Part shown: positions 4,800 to 45,366 of the stretch, piece after piece
Numbering within the stretch: the first letter of the stretch is position 1
How the letters are laid out: each line of letters opens with the position of its first letter
Origin: a virus
Reading direction: 5' to 3' (one strand)
DNA length: 64,000 bases
IMG/VR virus record: IMGVR_UViG_3300044974_001280
Coordinates: 124,001-188,000 of that record
Notes under the pieces: model-generated
Seen by the model: only the letters and a program-made list of their open reading frames with translations
Databases searched by the model: none
What the model was told of the DNA's origin: nothing
Program-made: the position numbers and the translations under genes

Positions 4800-5333
4800 G
4801 TGAAAGTTATTCTTCCTTATTCTCAATTCATTACCCAGCTAAATGAAGCCGATGGGTTTGGAACCTTGCCCTTTCTCTTTAAGAAAGACGGGGATCTATG
4901 TTACTATTTTTTCCAGATAGACAAAGAAAAAGGAGACCAGCAAGGTTATGTTTTTTTGATTGGCAAATACTCCAGATTTGAAAATATGGAGGGTCCAAAA
5001 AATTCTTATGCCGTCATTAATCTCAACCAGATCGAGCCCGAGGTGATCGAAGACATTGCAATTGAGAACACCAAGAATTTACCCGAAGCTAACTCCAATA
5101 AATTTAAACTTAAGGGAGGAGAATTGGCGAGGCTCTACAAGCAGATTGGCAAATGTCTTTTGAATTACTTGGAGAAAAACCCAAAAACAATCAGAATAGT
5201 GGATGAGATGAATCAAAATCTAGTTCTGAATAACTACGAGGAGTACGCTAGATCTATGTTAATTTCGATCCTAGGTGATGAATGGCATTTGCAACCCGGA
5301 TCTAGAAAAGGAGTTTACGTCTTGAATCGCTAG
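4800..5333 (+). CDS. Unknown protein with capsid-targeting-like leader
   Basis: A 177-residue protein of unknown function. The N-terminus MKVILPYSQFITQLNE-ADG is one of the clearest leaders here: aromatic pair Y-x-x-F, then L-N-E directly before A, the T4 prohead protease cleavage consensus. The GTG start fits because the leader begins there and a late-type box sits 17 nt upstream. The body has a soluble alpha/beta character with no catalytic motif that I can name. It stands alone between the ligase fusion and the histone-like gene. Probably a packaged internal protein, processed at residue 16. Confidence 0.6.
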   Translation: MKVILPYSQFITQLNEADGFGTLPFLFKKDGDLCYYFFQIDKEKGDQQGYVFLIGKYSRFENMEGPKNSYAVINLNQIEPEVIEDIAIENTKNLPEANSNKFKLKGGELARLYKQIGKCLLNYLEKNPKTIRIVDEMNQNLVLNNYEEYARSMLISILGDEWHLQPGSRKGVYVLNR

Positions 5334-12433: not shown

Positions 12434-12760
12434 CTATTTACTTTCCGTTTTGGCCTTGCCAGATAGAGTCTCATGAATTCTCTGTTTTACGTACTTTAGC
12501 ACTTTCTTAGAATCTTTGTGGTCTTTTGAAAGCATTTTTTGAAATTCTTCTTCCTCTGCTAACTCGTCTAGATACGAATACAAGTCAGTTGTGTTGTAGA
12601 GATCGTCAACTACCTGGGGCATCTGAGTGTAGGCTGGACGATAATTTCTGGAGTTAACGTTGTCTTTATACCAATCACCTGGCACTACCACACTCCCTGG
12701 AGCGAAGGCGCTCCAGCTTTCGGATAAAAATTTTTTGAAACTTTTAATACGGGGGGTCAT
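12434..12760 (-). CDS. Unknown small protein with capsid-targeting-like leader
   Basis: A 108-aa protein on the minus strand. It starts MTPRIKSFKKFLSE-SW, a textbook leader: basic, F-x-x-F-L, and L-S-E before S. The remaining 94 residues are not recognised; they contain a proline/aspartate/tyrosine-rich middle and an acidic then basic helical C-terminus. The start at 12760 is chosen because a late-type box lies 5 nt upstream; a longer frame would run into the divergent polymerase gene. It converges on the LamG gene with 4 nt between stops. Confidence 0.65.
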   Translation of the reverse strand: MTPRIKSFKKFLSESWSAFAPGSVVVPGDWYKDNVNSRNYRPAYTQMPQVVDDLYNTTDLYSYLDELAEEEEFQKMLSKDHKDSKKVLKYVKQRIHETLSGKAKTESK

Positions 12761-12765
12761 ATGTG

Positions 12766-12773
12766 TATATATC
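12766..12773 (-). promoter_or_regulatory. Putative late promoter box, 5 nt from the start codon
   Basis: On the minus strand this reads GATATATA, then ACACAT-type sequence to the ATG at 12760, leaving 5 nt. It lies in the divergent gap before the polymerase gene. Confidence 0.6.
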
Positions 12774-12806
12774 CAACTGGAGAAGACAAAAATTGACTTC
12801 GTAATT

Positions 12807-14210
12807 ATGATCATTGATATAGAAAATAAAGGGACTGGTTTAACGGTCTCTACTTTTTCAAAGGAGGGGAATGTTGAATTTGTCAACATTGAAATTCCTG
12901 AGGAAGAAAGATTCGTGTGGGAAATTTGTTCAGCTAGCGATAGGGCCAGAGACACTGTTTGGAAAAATTGGGACGGCAAGCCCATCAAGAAAGTCAAAAA
13001 TCAAAAGTACGACAAATACCGAATAGTTCAACTGTTAGAAGAGAGTGATCGGGATCTAACTGCACCTCTTTGGGAATCTCAAACCCCGAAAAAATATTTC
13101 GTGGACATTGAGGTCGAGATGACTGATGAGCTAGGTGATTCTTTGGACACCTCAAGTGCCAAAAATAGGGTCTTGTCGATCGGTATTGCCACTGACAGAT
13201 GTAAACTGATTGTGTTGGGTTTGGATGAGTTAACCCCCGAGGCACAGGCACAGATTCATGAAGAAGTGAACACCTACCTCGGCAAGATGGGTGATGAATG
13301 GTCTTTCAGATACATGAAATTCGAGTCCGAGTATGATATGATGTACACTTTTTTCAAAGACATTGGAGCCAAAATGTCTCTGATCACCGGCTGGAACTGG
13401 TTTGGTTACGACTGGCCCTATTTGCTTAATCGAGCCAAAAGGCTGGGCATCGATCCCAAGATCATGTCACCCTCTAAATATCTCATCGGTCAGAACCAAA
13501 TTCCGGTTCACTTGCAGATGGTCGACTATCTGGAAATCTACAAAAAATGGGATAGGGTTATCAAAATCAAAGAAAGTAATCGACTGGATTATGTGGCAGA
13601 AAAGGCAACGGGTCTCAAGAAAATTCACTATGATGGCTCTCTCCGAACCTTGTACCAATCAGATTTCAAAAAGTTTATTCTTTACAACGCCATTGACTGT
13701 GCCCTGGTCCATTACATCGATAAAAAATTGGGCACTCTCCTGACTTATTTTAAGATTGCCTGTCTCAACGGGGTCGAGATCGGCAGGGCTTTATCCCCTG
13801 TTTGGTCTACGGAAGTCATTATGCTCCGAAAATTCTTGGCTCGGAAGCAAGTTTTTGTAAATCTCCGCAAAGAAGAAAACCACATCAAATTCACGGGTGG
13901 CTATGTCAAAGAACCCATCCAGGGTCTGCACGAATGGGTTGCCTGTTACGACTTTGCTTCCCTATATCCGAACACAATAGTTCAGTGGGGTCTGTCCCCA
14001 GAAGTTTTCAAGGGTAAGAACATATCTCACTCCCAGGACTCCTGGACCAAAACCTCTTCAGGTTCGTTCTTTGGAGGTGACGACGAGGAGCCCATTCTGA
14101 AATCGATCATTAAAGATCTCTATGCCCAGAGAAGATCGACCAAAGATAAAATGTTGCAATTGCAGATTGAAATTGACAAAATAGAGAAACAATTAAAAAA
14201 CTTAACGTAG
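12807..14210 (+). CDS. 43A: Family B DNA polymerase, N-terminal part (exonuclease and palm motif A)
   Basis: This 467-aa protein is the first half of a T4 gp43-like polymerase. It has the 3'-5' exonuclease motifs FVDIEVE (Exo I), GWNWFGYDWPYL (Exo II) and YNAIDCAL (Exo III), then polymerase motif A in DFASLYPNTIVQWGLSPE. It stops in the fingers region after a coiled-coil-like helix (QLQIEIDKIEKQLKNL). Motifs B and C are absent here and are found in a separate gene at 35672, more than 21 kb away. The ATG at 12807 lies 46 nt from the divergent gene. The two parts must assemble to form an active enzyme. Together they total 851 aa, about the size of intact gp43. Confidence 0.9.
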   Translation: MIIDIENKGTGLTVSTFSKEGNVEFVNIEIPEEERFVWEICSASDRARDTVWKNWDGKPIKKVKNQKYDKYRIVQLLEESDRDLTAPLWESQTPKKYFVDIEVEMTDELGDSLDTSSAKNRVLSIGIATDRCKLIVLGLDELTPEAQAQIHEEVNTYLGKMGDEWSFRYMKFESEYDMMYTFFKDIGAKMSLITGWNWFGYDWPYLLNRAKRLGIDPKIMSPSKYLIGQNQIPVHLQMVDYLEIYKKWDRVIKIKESNRLDYVAEKATGLKKIHYDGSLRTLYQSDFKKFILYNAIDCALVHYIDKKLGTLLTYFKIACLNGVEIGRALSPVWSTEVIMLRKFLARKQVFVNLRKEENHIKFTGGYVKEPIQGLHEWVACYDFASLYPNTIVQWGLSPEVFKGKNISHSQDSWTKTSSGSFFGGDDEEPILKSIIKDLYAQRRSTKDKMLQLQIEIDKIEKQLKNLT

Positions 14211-35671: not shown

Positions 35672-36826
35672 ATGTCGTACGAAAATTTGTCCCAATCAGA
35701 ACTGCTTCAGAAAAAAGAAGAACTGACCGCTCTGAAAAACGAATATAAGAATGAAGAACAGGCGATCAAATTGACCATGAATTCTATCTATGGTTCGATT
35801 GGGAACAGTTATTTTGTGTGTTTCAACCACGAGGTAGCAGAAGCCGTTACCCTTCAGGGTCAGGATATGATTAAATATTCGGAGAAGATAGTCAACCGGT
35901 ACTTCCACGATTTTTGGCACGAGGACGTAGAACTGCACGAAAAATTAGGTCTAACTGAGGTTAAAAGAGTGGCCAAACCCCTTGTCATTTACTCTGATAC
36001 TGATTCCAACTATGTTACCTTTGAGGAAGTCGTTGCTTCCTGTGATTGGCAGGGTGATCCCAAAGAACTTATTCTTGCCATTAACGATTTAAGGCTGAAA
36101 AACTACATCAAAAAATGTTTTGATCTTTACTCTAAGAAATGGAACACTGAAAACTACCAGGACTTTGAACTTGAAACAATCTCAAAGAATGCTATTTTCT
36201 TGGGTAAGAAAAAATATGTCACCAATCAAGTCTATGCCGACGGGATACACTCGGATCCTCTGACTTTTATTAAAACAACAGGGGTAGAAATGATCAAGGG
36301 AGGAACCCCCACTTTTGTCAGAGAAAAACTTCTTTATTTGACGAAGTATATTCTGTCTGTGGGTAAAAACTTCAACCTTAGAGAATTTGTTCAGGAGTTA
36401 AAGAGCATTAAAAAAGATTTCAAGGCCCAAGAAGCCGAGCAGATCTCTCTCGCAATATCGGTTAACAACTACGAAAAATTCATCCTGAATGACACGACAA
36501 AACTCGAGGTGAGCAAGTCCTGTCCGATTCACGTTAGAGCCTCCGCTTTCCATAATTTTCTGCTAAACAACTCCAAGTACAAAGAGAAATATCCTCTTCT
36601 GAGATCTGGAGATAAAGTCAGATTTTATTTCGTGCCGGTTAGATCCGAGGCAGAGAACAACGTCTTTGCCTATTCCCAGGGTAATTTTCCCTATGAATAC
36701 GCACCCCCAGTCAACTACGACGAACAGTTCACCAAAACAATTCTAGATCCTATTAACAGATTTATCGAAGTAATGGGCTTTCACCCAATCAGTCCAAATC
36801 TTTTCATGATCAACACTCTTTTTTAA
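35672..36826 (+). CDS. 43B: Family B DNA polymerase, C-terminal part (motifs B and C)
   Basis: A 384-aa protein that completes the polymerase begun at 12807. It opens with a coiled-coil-like helix (SELLQKKEELTALKNEYKNE), then motif B in KLTMNSIYGSIGN, motif C in VIYSDTDSNYV, the K-K-K-Y of FLGKKKYVTNQVY, and the thumb. The C-terminal end (SPNLFMINTLF) resembles the clamp-binding tail of gp43. The break falls between motifs A and B in the fingers, where the flanking helices of both pieces could pair. No intein or intron remnant is visible at either end. Confidence 0.9.
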   Translation: MSYENLSQSELLQKKEELTALKNEYKNEEQAIKLTMNSIYGSIGNSYFVCFNHEVAEAVTLQGQDMIKYSEKIVNRYFHDFWHEDVELHEKLGLTEVKRVAKPLVIYSDTDSNYVTFEEVVASCDWQGDPKELILAINDLRLKNYIKKCFDLYSKKWNTENYQDFELETISKNAIFLGKKKYVTNQVYADGIHSDPLTFIKTTGVEMIKGGTPTFVREKLLYLTKYILSVGKNFNLREFVQELKSIKKDFKAQEAEQISLAISVNNYEKFILNDTTKLEVSKSCPIHVRASAFHNFLLNNSKYKEKYPLLRSGDKVRFYFVPVRSEAENNVFAYSQGNFPYEYAPPVNYDEQFTKTILDPINRFIEVMGFHPISPNLFMINTLF

Positions 36827-37301: not shown

Positions 37302-38768
37302 ATGAATTCACTACCCGCCGTGTTAAATTTTTGCAACTTCTTGAACGAATCTAAAGAAGAAAAAGGAGTTGAACTCCTGATCCTCTCAGGCACGGTAAAA
37401 CCCAGTCCGACGTCCAAATCCTTCCTGGAGGAATGCCAAAAAAGGGGTATCCCTTGTTACGTTGTCAACATCAACAATGTGCAGCTTGAAAAAATCTATA
37501 ATGGACATCTACTCCGGGAGACCTCAGGGGACAAAAGAGAAATTTTCATAAATCCTGATGTGACCGCTATTATTCCTAGACGAGGGGTTATTTCCAATTC
37601 TCTGACCAAACAGATCATGAGAGAATTAGAAGCATCCCGTTATTTCTGTGTCAATTCTCTGGAATCTATCGAGGTGTGTGAGAGTAAATTCTTAACCTCA
37701 AAGGTGTTGGAAGAGAATGAACTTCCAGTTCCCAGATATGCCCTGGTGAACGGGGAAGAAAATCTGGATACTGCCTTGGAACAAATAGGTGGTCAGTTTC
37801 CTGTAGTAATGAAGTTGCTCTCGGGCACTCAGGGCATTGGGGTTTCAATTGTTGATTCTTACGCCTCTCTGAAATCTGTGTATCAAACGATTGCCAAATT
37901 GGATCCCGAAAAGGAAATTCTTATTCAGGAAAAAATTGACTCGAACTTTGATTTGAGAATTCAGGTCATCCTCAAAAGATTTGACCCTTTAATCACCAAA
38001 CCAAGCAATTGCATTATTCTTGGATCCATGAAAAGAGAAGCAGTAAAAAAGGATTTCAGAACCAATTACTCTCTAGGAGGTAAAGTTTCTGCCTATAATA
38101 TAGATGATAAAATTGCCGATTTAGCCTGTCGGGCTGCTAATTCTGTCGGTAGCCATTGGTGCGGGGTAGACATCATGATCGATAAAAAAACGAAAGAGCC
38201 GTATATTCTGGAGGTTAATTCCTCGCCTGGAACAGAAGGCATCTCTCAGGCCATAGGAAGACCCATTGTGGGGGACGTCATCGATTATGTCATCAATAAA
38301 AAGAATTGGATCTACTCTAGGATGGAGGTTGGTTATTTAGAGACGATTGAGATCCCAGAGATAGGAAAGCTTGTTGCCAAATTCGACACTGGAAATGGCT
38401 CCAGTGCCTCATCGATTCAGGCAGATGAAACGAAAGAAGTAGGAAATCAGCTGAAGTGGAAAATCGGGGGCAAAGAATTTACCAGCGACATTGTTGGTTA
38501 CACCGATACGGAAGTGGGTAGAGATAAAAGCAAGAGACCTATTATTCTGCTAGACGTCATGCTCAACGGGGTAAAGATCTCGGATGTAAAAGTTGCTCCC
38601 ACGGATAGGGTCCAAAAAAGCACTCCATTCCTGGCCAGCAGAGGCCTGATGAAAAAAATGGGGGTAATGGTTAATCCACACAAAGCCTTTGTCGTCACCG
38701 AGGAGATTAAAGGTTATAGACCTTTGAAAGCCAAAGGCAAACCCCATCTTGGCATTGAATTTTCTTAA
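37302..38768 (+). CDS. RimK-like ATP-grasp ligase fused to RimB-like aspartic protease, with leader
   Basis: A 488-aa protein. Residues 1-18 (SLPAVLNFCNFLNE-SK) form a leader with F-x-x-F and L-N-E before S. Residues about 20-330 are a RimK-type ATP-grasp: PRYALVNGEENLDTALEQIG, VVMKLLSGTQGIGVSIV, ILIQEKID, and GVDIMIDKKTKEPYILEVNS then SPGTEGI. Residues about 345-488 are a retropepsin-like domain: GKLVAKFDTGNGSSASSIQA carries the D-T-G catalytic motif, as in RimB/ATP-dependent zinc-protease-type proteins. In bacteria RimK adds glutamates to ribosomal protein S6 and RimB trims them. Both activities in one packaged protein is unusual; the target is unknown. Confidence 0.8.
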   Translation: MNSLPAVLNFCNFLNESKEEKGVELLILSGTVKPSPTSKSFLEECQKRGIPCYVVNINNVQLEKIYNGHLLRETSGDKREIFINPDVTAIIPRRGVISNSLTKQIMRELEASRYFCVNSLESIEVCESKFLTSKVLEENELPVPRYALVNGEENLDTALEQIGGQFPVVMKLLSGTQGIGVSIVDSYASLKSVYQTIAKLDPEKEILIQEKIDSNFDLRIQVILKRFDPLITKPSNCIILGSMKREAVKKDFRTNYSLGGKVSAYNIDDKIADLACRAANSVGSHWCGVDIMIDKKTKEPYILEVNSSPGTEGISQAIGRPIVGDVIDYVINKKNWIYSRMEVGYLETIEIPEIGKLVAKFDTGNGSSASSIQADETKEVGNQLKWKIGGKEFTSDIVGYTDTEVGRDKSKRPIILLDVMLNGVKISDVKVAPTDRVQKSTPFLASRGLMKKMGVMVNPHKAFVVTEEIKGYRPLKAKGKPHLGIEFS

Positions 38769-39853: not shown

Positions 39854-40150
39854 ATGAACTTATCAACTATTACTTCCGAAGATTTTACTGAATTAACCCT
39901 GCTCGATTTTTGGGCTGAATGGTGCGGCCCTTGTAGAATGCTCCATCCTATTCTGGACCAAATCAAGACCAAAAATCCAGACCTAGTCATCCACAAAATC
40001 AACGTAGACGAGAACAGAGAAACTGCCATTGAATTTGGGGTTAGATCTCTCCCGACCGTACTGCTCATCAAAGACGGTCAAGAAGTAGAAAGAGCTACGG
40101 GCTTAAAAAACCTCGACCTCTATCAAAAATTAATTGACACTCATTCTTAA
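39854..40150 (+). CDS. trxA: Thioredoxin
   Basis: A 98-aa thioredoxin: LDFWAEWCGPCRMLHPILDQ has the canonical W-C-G-P-C active site, then VIHKINVDENRETAIEFGVR, the cis-proline in SLPTVLLIKDG and a final helix. It is a cytoplasmic dithiol reductant and the natural partner of the phage ribonucleotide reductase, whose C-terminal cysteine pair needs reduction. The ATG at 39854 is used because the fold begins there. T4 has a distinct NrdC; this one looks like the bacterial type. Confidence 0.95.
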   Translation: MNLSTITSEDFTELTLLDFWAEWCGPCRMLHPILDQIKTKNPDLVIHKINVDENRETAIEFGVRSLPTVLLIKDGQEVERATGLKNLDLYQKLIDTHS

Positions 40151-40163
40151 AAAAAAAGACTTT

Positions 40164-40694
40164 ATGAAAAATATTATCTCTTACGACAATTTTACTCCAG
40201 AATCTTCTGATCCTTTACAGGAGGGATGGAAAGATGCCGGCTATGGCTACAAAAGGTACCAACCCCCAGGCATGTTACAAACCATGAAAAGAAAAACAAA
40301 AAGCCTGTTTGGTATTGAATCAAGCAAGGATCGGGAAAGATTAGGACAAATTTACAAAGAAATTGAAAATCCTCCCTATCAAGGTTATATCTCCAACGTC
40401 AGAGACATCAGTGGAGAATATCCGGCTTTAATTTGCCATCTGGGACCTAGAAATCTGTCTGTTATGTGCGATCCACAAGACCCTTCCATCAGATGGGGAG
40501 GAAGTGAATTGGATTTGGCGGATATCGATGATGAATGCCAAAGACTTTATCGTTTCATCAAAAAGCACATGGACCTGACTGAAAATACACATTCTCCAAC
40601 GGACAACACCATCAAAGATCCTAAAAACATGTACTCTTCCTACCCAGGTGTAGGTGGGGTGAGTAACCGAACAGTCAACCGTTCTCTGATTTAA
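40164..40694 (+). CDS. Unknown protein with capsid-targeting-like leader
   Basis: A 176-aa protein. The N-terminus MKNIISYDNFTPESSDPLQE-GW has the Y-x-x-F pair and L-Q-E before G, the exact T4 protease consensus L-x-E/G. A basic segment (YKRYQPPGMLQTMKRKTKSL) and a domain with paired cysteines (ALICHLGPRNLSVMCDP) follow. The function is unknown. It follows thioredoxin after 13 nt and converges with a holin-like gene. Confidence 0.6.
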   Translation: MKNIISYDNFTPESSDPLQEGWKDAGYGYKRYQPPGMLQTMKRKTKSLFGIESSKDRERLGQIYKEIENPPYQGYISNVRDISGEYPALICHLGPRNLSVMCDPQDPSIRWGGSELDLADIDDECQRLYRFIKKHMDLTENTHSPTDNTIKDPKNMYSSYPGVGGVSNRTVNRSLI

Positions 40695-40701
40695 AGGGAT
40701 A

Positions 40702-41028
40702 TTAAGAGTGAATAGGAGGTTCTTCGAAATCATCAGCGTTTCGAGAAACCTCCTTTTTTTCTTTCTGGATTTCGGTCATGATGTACCCGGCAATCGCAAA
40801 TTCGATCCCCGCCCAGATGGCAACATCAGAGGCAGACAATTCAGAGTGTTTTTCTAACATCCAGAAGATCATGCCCCATTGCCCAATAACAAAAGCCAAA
40901 CTAGATTCTATTCTTTTCTTTGAAAAAAAAGATTTCTTGGGACTGTACATGTAAACTAGCTCTCGGCAGAGCCAAAACATTTTGACCCTAATTGTGCCGA
41001 AAAATTTCTGTAGATCTTTCATTCCCAT
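40702..41028 (-). CDS. Membrane protein, possible holin
   Basis: A 108-aa protein with two hydrophobic helices, IESSLAFVIGQWGMIFWMLE and DVAIWAGIEFAIAGYIM, joined by a short polar turn and followed by a charged C-terminal tail (TEIQKEKKEVSRN). A basic, amphipathic N-terminus precedes them. Size, two helices and charged tail fit small phage holins, but no family is recognised. It overlaps the next minus-strand gene by 10 nt. Confidence 0.5.
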   Translation of the reverse strand: MGMKDLQKFFGTIRVKMFWLCRELVYMYSPKKSFFSKKRIESSLAFVIGQWGMIFWMLEKHSELSASDVAIWAGIEFAIAGYIMTEIQKEKKEVSRNADDFEEPPIHS

Positions 41029-41297
41029 TCAACATAATAACCCCCGCCAAATGATGTTCCGTGTTCCATCTGTCTGCCTCTGTTTTCTGTCCAATCCAAC
41101 CAATCTAGTCTATCTGCTGAATTGGCAAGTTCCAATAGACAATTAGCTAATTCCTGACCTTTTTCATCCCCCATAATTTTTTTCAATTTGTTTTTTATCT
41201 CGGGTAACTGCAAGATTTTTTTGGTGTTCTTTGCTTCTCCCTGGCCAATCAAATTCAGCATCTTCCTTTTCTCTGTTTCTGACATGAATTTATCCAT
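41019..41297 (-). CDS. Unknown small protein
   Basis: A 92-aa protein starting MDKFMSETEKRKMLNLIGQG. It is helical and basic, then has a tryptophan/aspartate patch (DRLDWLDWTENRGRQ) and a glycine/tyrosine end (GGGYYVEWE). No family recognised. It lies 8 nt downstream of the next minus-strand gene's stop and overlaps the holin-like gene, so all belong to one minus-strand operon headed by the Clp gene. Confidence 0.45.
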   Translation of the reverse strand: MDKFMSETEKRKMLNLIGQGEAKNTKKILQLPEIKNKLKKIMGDEKGQELANCLLELANSADRLDWLDWTENRGRQMEHGTSFGGGYYVEWE

Positions 41298-41305
41298 AGT
41301 AAAAT

Positions 41306-42322
41306 TTATTTTATGTAATCAGAGATTTCCATCATTTTATCAAAATCTCCCTCCTCGTCGGCCTTTCTGTATTCCCTTTTTAGTTCTTCTTGGGACATAC
41401 TAGCGTAATCTTTGGTGATCTGTGATTCTGAACCACTTGGGGATTTGGCAGCTTGTCTGGCTTTCCATGCTGCTAATTTCCTTTCATACTCAGCCTTATC
41501 GGCTCTATCCTGCTCCAGCCAGGCATCTCTGGCTTCCACCCTCTCAATGACTACATCAATCAATTCATCGATTTTTTTTCTGGCTTCTGGAGTTTTTCTA
41601 AAAATTCCTGTCATCAGAGGTAAAAATTCAGCCGTGGGTAAATTCTCTGGATCCACCATATATTTCCAAAGTTCCTCTCTCAAATTAGAATATTTGATGA
41701 CCTTGGGATTCTCAAAGATAAATTTTCTTAGATCTTCGGCCATTTGAGGACCATATCTCCATTCGTCCGGTTCGTCTATCAATCCGAATTGATCTTCAAT
41801 AGCCTTGGCTAGTTCAGGGTCATCTGGTACTGCAGACATTGACATAACCCTCCAAATTCCTTTGACTGCCTCATGAATCAGCATGCTGAAATCCGCTCCT
41901 AAAGCTTTAATTACTGGTTTAGAATCCGGTCGAGGTCTGTTTTTTTGTCTTGTTTTTCTAAAGCTGTCATCCAACATCCTCCTTATTTCTGGTCCCTGTA
42001 CTAGTTTAATTTCAAGCTTTATGTCGTAGTAATCAATGAGGGGCTTGTATAGATCTGTAATTATTTCTCTTGCTAGATCTTCTAGCTCCTTTTCATACCC
42101 TCTAGAAAGTTGCTGGGATCTCGAAAAATTTCCCATCAACTGGCTAACGGCTTGGCTGATTCCTTGCGGGGATCCCTCGGGAGTTTTCCCGATGCCGAGT
42201 TTTTCTTTAGCTCTTCTCGTGACATCCTCTAGGTAGTCGGGGGGAATACTCACCATGTCTTTAACCCTAATAGCCTCATTAAAGGATGCAAAATTCTTTG
42301 TGAAATTGGCTTTTAGTGACAT
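41306..42322 (-). CDS. Unknown protein with capsid-targeting-like leader
   Basis: A 338-aa protein starting MSLKANFTKNFASFNE-AIR: aromatic pair and F-N-E before A. It is mostly helical and highly charged: SRGYEKELEDLAREIITDLY, KPVIKALGADFSMLIHEAVK, and a long coiled segment of A/K/R/E near the end, then EELKREYRKADEEGDFDKMM, which resembles a UVR-type hairpin. No catalytic motif is recognised. The stop of the Clp gene lies 4 nt upstream, so the two are co-transcribed. Confidence 0.6.
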   Translation of the reverse strand: MSLKANFTKNFASFNEAIRVKDMVSIPPDYLEDVTRRAKEKLGIGKTPEGSPQGISQAVSQLMGNFSRSQQLSRGYEKELEDLAREIITDLYKPLIDYYDIKLEIKLVQGPEIRRMLDDSFRKTRQKNRPRPDSKPVIKALGADFSMLIHEAVKGIWRVMSMSAVPDDPELAKAIEDQFGLIDEPDEWRYGPQMAEDLRKFIFENPKVIKYSNLREELWKYMVDPENLPTAEFLPLMTGIFRKTPEARKKIDELIDVVIERVEARDAWLEQDRADKAEYERKLAAWKARQAAKSPSGSESQITKDYASMSQEELKREYRKADEEGDFDKMMEISDYIK

Positions 42323-42326
42323 ATTC

Positions 42327-44792
42327 TTAGTAAAATGGTTTTCTTTTTTTGAGTTCTGATATGTACCTTTTGATCACATCCATCTCTGAAGCTTTTTTCT
42401 TTATTGCTTGGGGTCCAGGAGCATGAGAAGGAACTTTAATTCGTGGTGCAATTGACGGATGAGGAGTTATTCTTCGGACCGGTTCTGCATCTGGATCAAA
42501 ATCCTCATCCTCATCTTCATCCTCACTGGGTGTAGGTTTAGGAGTAGGCTTAGGCTGTGGTTTAGGCGTAGGTTTAGGCAGTGGTTTAGGCAGTGGTTTA
42601 GGCAAAGGAGCTGGTTTTCCCTTTTCCTCTTCTTTCTCCCTTTCTGTTTCCGCCTCGTCTAATCTATCGCTAAATTCTGAAAAACTATTGATTCTTCTAG
42701 GACTTGTAGATTCGAACAAAGAAAAACTTTTGTGGATTTTTCTGAGTCTAGATTCAGATAACTCTGAAATTTTCTTTCCGTTAATGACTAACTCATCTGC
42801 CAAGGAATCGTAATCAATTTTGAGGTTGGATCCTTCCTCAATCTCTTCCTCGATTATAAAATTGGCTAGAGGGTCCTTGATATATTTCTCCACTGCTCTT
42901 CTAAGGGGTCTAGCCCCATATTCAGGGTCAAATCCGTGTTTAAGTAACAACTTGTAAACCGAAGTTCCCCAAGTCAGATTAATGTCTTGGGTATTTTTAA
43001 TCCTATCTGCCACCTTCTCGAGCTCTTTTTCTGCAATCTTTTTTATTGATTCTTGGTCTATTGACTGAAAAATAACAATATCATCTATTCTATTAATAAA
43101 TTCGGGCGAAAACTCTTTTTTGATCGCTGCATCGACTCTTGCTTTGATTTCCTCAGGTGATTCTGCTCCAGTCTGTTTTGTTTCATCTTCTGGTTCATCT
43201 TTAACCAAAAAACCAATCGCTTTTCTGGGTTCCTTTGATTTAACCTTTTTAGATCCTGTTTTTGATCCCACATTAGAAGTCATGATAATAACACAGTTTG
43301 TAAAGTCAACCGTTCTCCCTTGCCCGTCCGTCATCCTTCCATCTTCTAGCACCCCTAGCAGGGATTGTATAACTTGAGGGTTTGCTTTTTCGATCTCATC
43401 TAGCAAAATTACCGAATAAGGGTTTCTTCTGACTTGCTCTGTTAGTTTGCCTCCTTCCGAATAACCTACATAACCGGGAGGTGATCCAAACAATTTAGAT
43501 CCTGTATGAGCCTCCGAATATTCATTCATATCAATCCTAATCAATTTAGATTCCCTAGATCCAAAAAGCTCCTCAGCCAATTTTTTCACCAAATAGGTTT
43601 TACCTGTCCCAGTAGGGCCCACGAATAAAAATACCCCTTCAGGTCTATTAGGGTCTTTAAGACCCGACCTGTTTCTTTTAATTGTTCTAACAACGGTCTC
43701 TACCGCCTCGTCTTGACCGATAACTTTTGATTTCAGTCTGCTTGACATTCCTTTTAGGATTGCCTTACTGCCCTTTTTCATCGTTTCAACAGGAATCCCT
43801 GTTTTATCTGCCACTAGTTTTTCCACCATTTCTTTAGTGACGGTAATTTTAGGTCCCATTTGACCTTTCGCAGCCATTTTTTCAAGCCGACTCTCTATCT
43901 TTTCTTTTTCATCTGATAGATCTGCAGCAGCATCATAGTCACCTTCTGCCGTCTTTTGCCTGATCCGGTCTAGGAGTTCTAAATTTTTCTTTTCTAGATT
44001 CGCAACCTCCGCATCCGGGGCATTTTTAATGCGAATTCGTGCACCGGATTCGTCCATCAAGTCGATAGCTTTATCTGGCAAAAATCGGTCTTTAATATAC
44101 TGCTTAGATAGTTTATAAAAGGATTCTAAGGCTTCTGGTGAATAATTAACATGATGCCAATCCCCATATTTTTCTTGGATTTCTCTAAGTATTTCCATGC
44201 ATTCCTCGTAGGTAGGCTCTTCAACTTTGATCGGTTGAAATCTTCTTTCCATGGCTCCGTCTTTCTCAATAGTTTGACCATATTCACTATAAGTGGAACC
44301 ACCGATCATATGAAGTTTGGCTTTAGCCAAAAAGGGTTTGAGTTCATCGTAACTTGCTTTAGGTAGAGAATGGAGTTCGTCCACAAAAATAATCAAGTTA
44401 TCTTCCTCAATTTCACGGGCCAAAAGGGGTAAATAACCTCCATTAACTATTTTTTTAAATGCCCAGGTCAAATCTATTAACTTTTTCCCCTTTAAAAAAC
44501 CGGGACATTTATCGCTTGCCATTAAAAGAGCAAGCTTATCCACAATAGCGGTTTTTCCAACGCCCGGCTCTCCAACCAAAACTGGATTATCCTTGGTTTT
44601 CCTGGCCAGAATGCGAAGCAACTGTTCCAATTCCTTATCCCTTCCAATTACTTCATTTATCTCTCCCTCCTTCGCTGCTTTGGTCATATCCTCACCGTAT
44701 GCTTGCCAAAGCTTTTCATCATCTGGGACTTTTAGTTCTTCCTCAGATTCGAATAATCTTAATTTTTTGTAATTCTTGGATATTCTTTTCAT
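42327..44792 (-). CDS. ClpC-like double AAA+ unfoldase with leader and unusual C-terminal extension
   Basis: An 821-aa protein. The N-terminus KNYKKLRLFE-SEEE replaces the Clp N-domain with a leader-like segment. AAA-1 has VLVGEPGVGKTAIVDKLALL and IIFVDELHSL; a UVR-like insert (TAEGDYDAAADLSDEKEKIE) follows; AAA-2 has FLFVGPTGTGKTYLVKKLAE, VILLDEIEKANP and ARPLRRAVEKYI. RKAIGFLVKDEPE sits where ClpA/C/X carry the I-G-F/L-G-F loop that docks on ClpP. After AAA-2 come two more leader-like motifs (KSFSLFE-ST and NSFSEFSDRLDE-AE), a P-K-P repeat linker, an acidic run and a basic tail. No protease gene is in the window, so it may use host ClpP. Confidence 0.85.
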   Translation of the reverse strand: MKRISKNYKKLRLFESEEELKVPDDEKLWQAYGEDMTKAAKEGEINEVIGRDKELEQLLRILARKTKDNPVLVGEPGVGKTAIVDKLALLMASDKCPGFLKGKKLIDLTWAFKKIVNGGYLPLLAREIEEDNLIIFVDELHSLPKASYDELKPFLAKAKLHMIGGSTYSEYGQTIEKDGAMERRFQPIKVEEPTYEECMEILREIQEKYGDWHHVNYSPEALESFYKLSKQYIKDRFLPDKAIDLMDESGARIRIKNAPDAEVANLEKKNLELLDRIRQKTAEGDYDAAADLSDEKEKIESRLEKMAAKGQMGPKITVTKEMVEKLVADKTGIPVETMKKGSKAILKGMSSRLKSKVIGQDEAVETVVRTIKRNRSGLKDPNRPEGVFLFVGPTGTGKTYLVKKLAEELFGSRESKLIRIDMNEYSEAHTGSKLFGSPPGYVGYSEGGKLTEQVRRNPYSVILLDEIEKANPQVIQSLLGVLEDGRMTDGQGRTVDFTNCVIIMTSNVGSKTGSKKVKSKEPRKAIGFLVKDEPEDETKQTGAESPEEIKARVDAAIKKEFSPEFINRIDDIVIFQSIDQESIKKIAEKELEKVADRIKNTQDINLTWGTSVYKLLLKHGFDPEYGARPLRRAVEKYIKDPLANFIIEEEIEEGSNLKIDYDSLADELVINGKKISELSESRLRKIHKSFSLFESTSPRRINSFSEFSDRLDEAETEREKEEEKGKPAPLPKPLPKPLPKPTPKPQPKPTPKPTPSEDEDEDEDFDPDAEPVRRITPHPSIAPRIKVPSHAPGPQAIKKKASEMDVIKRYISELKKRKPFY

Positions 44793-44896: not shown

Positions 44897-45336
44897 GGGG
44901 CTGAAAGGAATCGACTGGAGGCATAAGTTCTTTGACATGATGCAGGCGGTGCTAGCTTTGGAAGCACCTAAATATCCTAAGTACTTCTTAAATGGCGAAA
45001 ATCCATTTTTTGCTTTGGCTGGACTAGGTTCAGCGGAGCCGGTTGAAGTTGCCTTGGCAGCCTAAACCTCGGGGGGTGACACCCAGGAACAGAAAGTCAC
45101 GAGGGTGGGAAAAAGGGTTAACAGTACCACACAATCCGTCGATCCTCAGTAACCCTGCGGGCTCCGGTCCAATACCCTTCAGATCGCTGTAGGGATCGAT
45201 GATGTGGATTATCTCCTATCACAGTCAAAAACTAGGAGGTAAAGATTTGTCTGTTTAGAAAAATGGACTAAGCCTGTGAACGAGTTTCATGGAATTACCT
45301 AGCAGGACGGCGGTTCGAATCCGCCCAGCTCCACCA
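44897..45336 (+). ncRNA. ssrA: Transfer-messenger RNA (tmRNA)
   Basis: The 5' end GGGGCTGAAAGGAATCGACT pairs with the 3' end CAGCTCC-ACCA to form the acceptor stem (one G-U). The T arm GGCGGTTCGAATCCGCC and an encoded CCA are present. The tag frame starts with a GGC resume codon at 44994 and reads GENPFFALAGLGSAEPVEVA then LAA and TAA at 45063, 23 residues in all. Host-type tags in Bacteroidota are short and, as I recall, begin GE and end ALAA, so this one looks extended past a first ALA-G. tmRNA frees stalled ribosomes and marks the product for Clp proteolysis. About 440 nt long. Confidence 0.93.
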
Positions 45337-45366
45337 AAAGTTTGTCGTAAGACAAACTTTTTTTTT
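45337..45366 (+). terminator. Rho-independent terminator of tmRNA
   Basis: AAAGTTTGTC and GACAAACTTT form a perfect 10-bp stem with a GTAA loop directly after the CCA end, followed by a T run. Confidence 0.92.

Follow-up and report, generated by a model that had tools for sequence, protein, structure and literature searches.

Phage-encoded tmRNA, SmpB, ClpP and ClpA are each already known singly. Huge phages encode tmRNA together with SmpB, their tmRNAs having been called with ARAGORN (Al-Shayeb et al., 2020, PMC7162821). The phages described here resemble them in encoding ribosome-rescue genes, but ARAGORN misses most of the present group, and neither tag length nor Clp partners were found described in the accessible text of that survey. 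A tmRNA is reported in 402 phages (PMC9004378). The Methylophilales phage Melnitz is, as here, a T4-like phage with a complete tmRNA, proposed in its description to tag host proteins selectively. The Melnitz tmRNA is, however, of the permuted two-piece alphaproteobacterial type and is linked to a riboswitch, and ClpP is unmentioned in the accessible part of the report (PMC9004378). The mycobacteriophages Bxz1, Catera and Wildcat likewise possess their own tmRNA but are actinobacterial phages, and no long tag is reported for them in the portion of the source consulted, which includes among phage tmRNAs the tag-less molecule of DS6A (PMC4131195). Clp components are encoded by jumbo phages carrying ClpP, ClpA and ClpX, with host proteins as suggested targets or a suggested role in virion assembly; in contrast to the present phages, tmRNA and SmpB go unmentioned in the text accessible (PMC7824862). 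A clade-conserved extended phage tag or a tmRNA-SmpB-Clp set was not found in the accessible text of the literature searched, and phrase searches on phage ClpP or on the tmRNA tags of phages yielded nothing relevant. Here we describe a phage tmRNA gene with a 23-residue tag. With an estimated probability of about two in three, this gene specifies a functional trans-translation RNA whose degron has been lengthened. Clp components are likewise encoded in the phage group concerned.

A one-piece tmRNA gene with a 23-codon tag frame

The window analysed is a stretch of 64,000 bases corresponding to bases 124001-188000 of a 230,445-base IMG/VR virus record. It contains T4-like replication genes (topoisomerase subunits, B-family DNA polymerase and ribonucleotide reductase), and the record is that of a large phage. 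The B-family DNA polymerase is split into ORFs 12660-14210 and 35672-36826, about 21 kb apart, the first matching PF00136 over positions 16-142 and the second from position 141 onward; the second half is a separate ORF in relatives too. A one-piece tmRNA (ssrA) gene is located on the plus strand at 44897-45336. It matches RF00023 over the full model (1-374 of 374) with 72.1 bits (E 4e-26; gathering cut-off 47 bits), and tmRNA is the sole Rfam RNA family matched in the window. This full-length match in a virus record bears out the claim of an earlier note on this DNA that the phage encodes a complete tmRNA. The 3' CCA is encoded at 45334-45336, while most relatives' tmRNAs possess ACAA instead. 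A terminator-like hairpin followed by a T run is present at 45336-45361 on the same strand, with about one such expected by chance in the region; a similar hairpin is also present in relative G005. Within about 30 bases upstream of the tmRNA start, G007, G008, G030 and G032 carry a TAnnTTTG element (TAAATTTG, TATCTTTG), which we take to resemble the Bacteroidota -7 promoter box; none was seen at about 30 bases from the tmRNA start in this window. ARAGORN missed the tmRNA at 44897-45336 when run on the window and found 3/10 of the phage tmRNAs tested, one of them misframed. Nucleotide searches with the tmRNA and tblastn searches with the tag gave no match in 50,697 phage records.

The predicted fold is supported by covariation in an alignment of eight phage tmRNAs. 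Compensatory changes are found in PK1, PK2 and the T stem, with 12 pairs changed on both sides compared to 5.7 in shuffles and a covariation score of 0.284 compared to 0.124 for shuffled alignments and at most 0.032 in slid registers. The 5' strand of the acceptor stem (44897-44903) pairs with 45326-45332 at 7/7 positions, as it does in all eight RNAs with the alignment adjusted by one column, and the G3:U70 alanine identity pair, a wobble, is present in 8/8. Part of helix P2 (44942-44947, pairing with 45272-45277) has pairs that are invariant in the set. Both pseudoknots flanking the tag possess covariation support. PK1 upstream (44948-44981) shows three compensatory pairs in stem 1 and two in stem 2, and stem 2 of PK2 downstream (45073-45100) is changed on both sides in four of its five pairs. 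Three of five pairs in the T arm (45309-45325) show compensatory changes. The single-strand fold of the RNA is uninformative (z -1.2), which is normal for pseudoknotted molecules.

The resume position of RF00023 aligns with GGC at 44994 with high posterior probability. This covariance alignment sets the tag as GENPFFALAGLGSAEPVEVALAA, a frame of 23 codons closed by TAA at 45063-45065 (44994-45065, plus strand) and kept in relatives. The earlier note had proposed the same extended frame, from 44994 to the TAA at 45063, and the covariance model leaves the resume codon in it. The tag terminates in a hydrophobic, alanine-rich VALAA, with small variants in relatives. A glycine resume codon, as present here, is characteristic of Bacteroidota-type tmRNAs, but the 23 residues of this tag contrast with the approximately 9 of that type.

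Tags of related phages and of Saprospirales

Relatives were identified through their T4 gp39-like topoisomerase, yielding 11 viral contigs of 61-100% identity. Nine whole records contain a tmRNA above the cut-off (G003, G004, G005, G007, G008, G009, G010, G011 and G013), and none was found in the remaining two, both of which are fragments. G030, G031 and G032 were added by a 5'-end pattern search. G003 and G004 represent the same phage as the window. Tags in this clade are 23-25 residues long, down to 61% topoisomerase identity. They read GENPFFALAGLGSVESVEVALAA in G005, GENPFFVLAGLGSVETAEVALAA in G007 and G032, GENPFYILAGLAPVEEAEVALAA in G008 (a long-tag frame on which ARAGORN, run independently, agrees), GENPFYILAGLAPVEEAEVALVA in G031 and GENPFFILAGLVPQKEAEVALAVA in G030, while the 61% relatives possess a 25-residue tag, GKTNVWEAINSFGAPVSQVEFAVAA, that differs from those of the near clade. 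The pattern GENPFxxLAGLxxxxxxEVALAA is kept across divergent phages. In pairwise tests, which are not mutually independent, the G005 and G007 tags show 14 base differences and 3 residue differences where 8.8 are expected at random (P 5e-5), and G000 and G007 also show an excess of silent changes (P 0.005), other pairs being weaker. Taking all variable sites, 11/23 are at third positions, a weak bias that does not reach significance on its own (P 0.11). The tags of the clade appear to be conserved mainly at the amino-acid level.

According to the earlier note, the long tag arose when the ALAA-stop of a short tag became ALAG. The tags of the relatives do not support this origin. Because the GENPF...LAG form does not vary within the near clade and the 25-residue tag of the 61% relatives is different, the extension is, as judged by sequence comparison, old. 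A stop-loss origin is not demonstrable, and residues inserted between GENxF and ALAA would explain the tags just as well.

Long tags are also found in two phages that are apparently unrelated to the window phage, with no similarity detected in the stretch compared (window positions 30000-56000). G014 possesses a 23-residue tag, GKNIPVNLLAQGQVGHSNFAYAG, on which ARAGORN agrees. G033 (IMG/VR 3300030419_005314, L284) has a 40-residue tag frame, GDNSLDGLVIDWHLAGAEMGFDNYVEESVSDSQPTYAYAA, read manually from a single sequence; its tmRNA carries the Saprospirales-type 5' motif and its tag is far longer than any other read. A strict 23-codon long-tag pattern, representing one length and motif only, gave 0 matches across 257 Gb of genome sequence; in viral contigs it matched the known relatives alone.

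The GTDB species genome collection contains 69 stretches with the 5' motif GGGGCTGA(N2-4)GGAATCGACNGG, and the proven tmRNAs among them are nearly all from Saprospirales, the motif being common almost only to the phage tmRNAs and this order. From this motif and the Bacteroidota-like phage ClpP we infer that the host or tmRNA donor probably belongs to Saprospirales (Bacteroidota). Saprospirales ssrA genes further resemble those of the phages in their GGC resume codon, preceded in some by TTAAAT as in the phage, and in tags with an initial G and a terminal A(L/M)AA. In contrast, the approximately 80 Saprospirales tags read are 8-10 residues long (e.g. GENTFALAA and GESNYALAA), making the tag of the window phage about 14 residues longer, and the RNAs span 361-407 bases compared to 418-460 in the phage clade, where covariance scores are lower. 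The tmRNA matches in 114 Bacteroidota genomes are 349-412 bases long, all shorter than those of the clade, and the tags of those longer matches that were read completely have 9-10 residues. The short host tags presumed in the earlier note are thus found in Saprospirales, and the long tag is present in no sampled host relative. A longer second tmRNA copy in Bacteroidota genome G249 (G249:C1:772761-773172, L342), considered as a potential long-tag case, was rejected as a decayed paralogue about 45 kb from the main copy; its tag GENNYALAA is still open.

These comparisons bear on the possibility that this is an ordinary phage tmRNA whose tag length has drifted, the extra residues being tolerated and having no role. 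Longer tmRNA tags occur in some other bacteria. Tag length varies widely among tmRNAs, with a modal length of 10 and tags as short as 2 residues in the accessible data (PMC11915505), and the other phage tmRNAs read here carry 9-16 residues. Drift is nevertheless improbable, given that a length of 23-25 residues and the GENPF-to-VALAA pattern are kept across divergent phages with silent changes in excess and that none of the Bacteroidota sampled possesses a long tag.

Clp and SmpB genes

The genes that bear most on function, those for phage Clp proteins and, in relatives, SmpB, were absent from the earlier note. A ClpC/ClpA-type AAA+ unfoldase of 821 residues with a proline-rich tail is encoded at 42327-44792 on the minus strand, 104 bases from the tmRNA and divergent from it (phrog_4871, E 4e-196). 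It consists of two AAA+ modules and a ClpB_D2-small domain and scores under the NCBIfam equivalog cut-offs for both ClpA and ClpB. Its best solved relative is Bacillus subtilis ClpC, with the alignment beginning at residue 32 opposite ClpC residue 166, indicating that the phage protein lacks the N-domain. The loop AIGFLVKDE aligns with YVGFNVQDE of ClpC, a match to the ClpP-docking IGF/VGF loop. The VGF loop of ClpC docks on ClpP, and ClpB is without such a loop. Searching viral contigs for the unfoldase returned distant ATPases only. Where tested, three co-directional genes (41306-42322, 41019-41297 and 40702-41028, minus strand) match nothing in Pfam, NCBIfam or PHROG. Together with the unfoldase they occupy the slot where G005 carries ClpP, between the homologue of 40134-40694 and the tmRNA.

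N-terminal motifs such as MKVILPYSQFITQLNE/AD and FASFNE/AI resemble the T4 capsid-targeting propeptides cut by the prohead protease, with 19 N-terminal matches compared to 9.3 in shuffles. Propeptide-like motifs are found in 1449-2387, 4800-5333 and 41306-42322 and, as an internal INSFSEFSDRLDE/AE, in the tail of the unfoldase.

In relatives, ClpP is located in the unfoldase slot or its neighbourhood. ClpP is present in 9 records of the clade (PF00574, S14 family, 184-199 bits) with an invariant Ser-His-Asp triad (S127/H152/D201). It is 45-47% identical to Saprospirales ClpP, with which it has the N-terminal sequence TPxxxEERxxxxxxDxFSRLMMDR in common. A RimK-like ATP-grasp ligase whose C-terminal stretch is retropepsin-like (37302-38768; NCBIfam NF052263, E 3e-7) is kept in relatives close to their thioredoxin and ClpP locus. 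SmpB genes are found in G009, G010, G013 and G001 only. As both SmpB and a ClpC-type ATPase were found in G009, this 373-kb phage possesses tmRNA, SmpB, ClpP and a ClpC-type ATPase, the four parts being dispersed over its genome. The 230-kb record of the window, possibly a fragment, gave no match to ClpP or SmpB. The tag is of the same kind whether the locus carries ClpP or the ClpC-type unfoldase, so no matching of tag to protease is apparent.

In a special case of the working-tmRNA explanation, the tag extension would be a private degron recognized specifically by a Clp unfoldase or protease of the phage, which would destroy phage-rescued products in a pathway apart from that of the host. 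Phages that carry the tmRNA have Clp genes adjoining it or close by, the complete set is found in G009, and the unfoldase lacks the N-domain that adaptors use. The tag is, however, unchanged between ClpP-locus and ClpC-locus phages, host ClpX would probably read the ALAA end anyway, and an own ATPase is not seen in most clade members, whose records are fragments. We regard such a degron as doubtful. A similarly tentative proposal has two parts: that these phages encode a self-contained rescue-degradation pathway independent of that of the host, comprising SmpB, ClpP, a ClpC-type unfoldase and a tmRNA whose long degron is private, and that the tag was lengthened on more than one occasion among phages whose tmRNAs are Saprospirales-type or Bacteroidota-like (23, 25 and 40 residues).

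Proposed role of the long tag

The RNA could in principle be a decoy in the manner of the tag-less DS6A molecule, titrating SmpB or ribosomes of the host and so blocking its trans-translation. A precedent exists in a phage tmRNA that consists of the TLD only and inhibits the tmRNA of the host, as far as the accessible text describes it (PMC4131195). In the present phages the frame of the tag, the resume codon and the pseudoknots are all conserved, features with which a decoy could dispense, making this function very unlikely. Although tmRNA genes commonly serve as integration sites, it is scarcely credible that the gene is a piece of host tmRNA retained as an attachment site or acquired recently as a passenger, as it is whole, diverged, surrounded by T4-like replication genes and common to the phage group down to 61% topoisomerase identity, a clade-wide conservation that rules out this reading at the locus.

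As a working trans-translation RNA, the phage tmRNA would, by analogy with the tmRNA family, be charged with alanine by the host enzyme and bind SmpB, here that of the host and in the 373-kb relatives the phage-encoded protein, freeing ribosomes stalled on broken mRNAs during infection. Alanine followed by GENPFFALAGLGSAEPVEVALAA would be added to the unfinished protein, and predicted tagged products carry an ...A-GENPFFALAGLGSAEPVEV... junction. The hydrophobic ALAA end would direct the product to a Clp protease. In relatives, host ClpX or ClpC with phage ClpP would degrade it, and in the window phage the phage ClpC-type unfoldase would dock on host ClpP. The tag is presumably degradative, and its extra length may provide a longer unstructured handle for the unfoldase or a different recognition site.

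ARAGORN-based surveys undercount tmRNA genes of this kind. The finding bears on the question of why phages carry tmRNA. The protein-level conservation of the tag in the phage clade and its length above that of the tags of likely hosts suggest that selection probably acts on the tag itself and not only on the release of ribosomes; the Clp and SmpB genes found with it provide directly testable partners.
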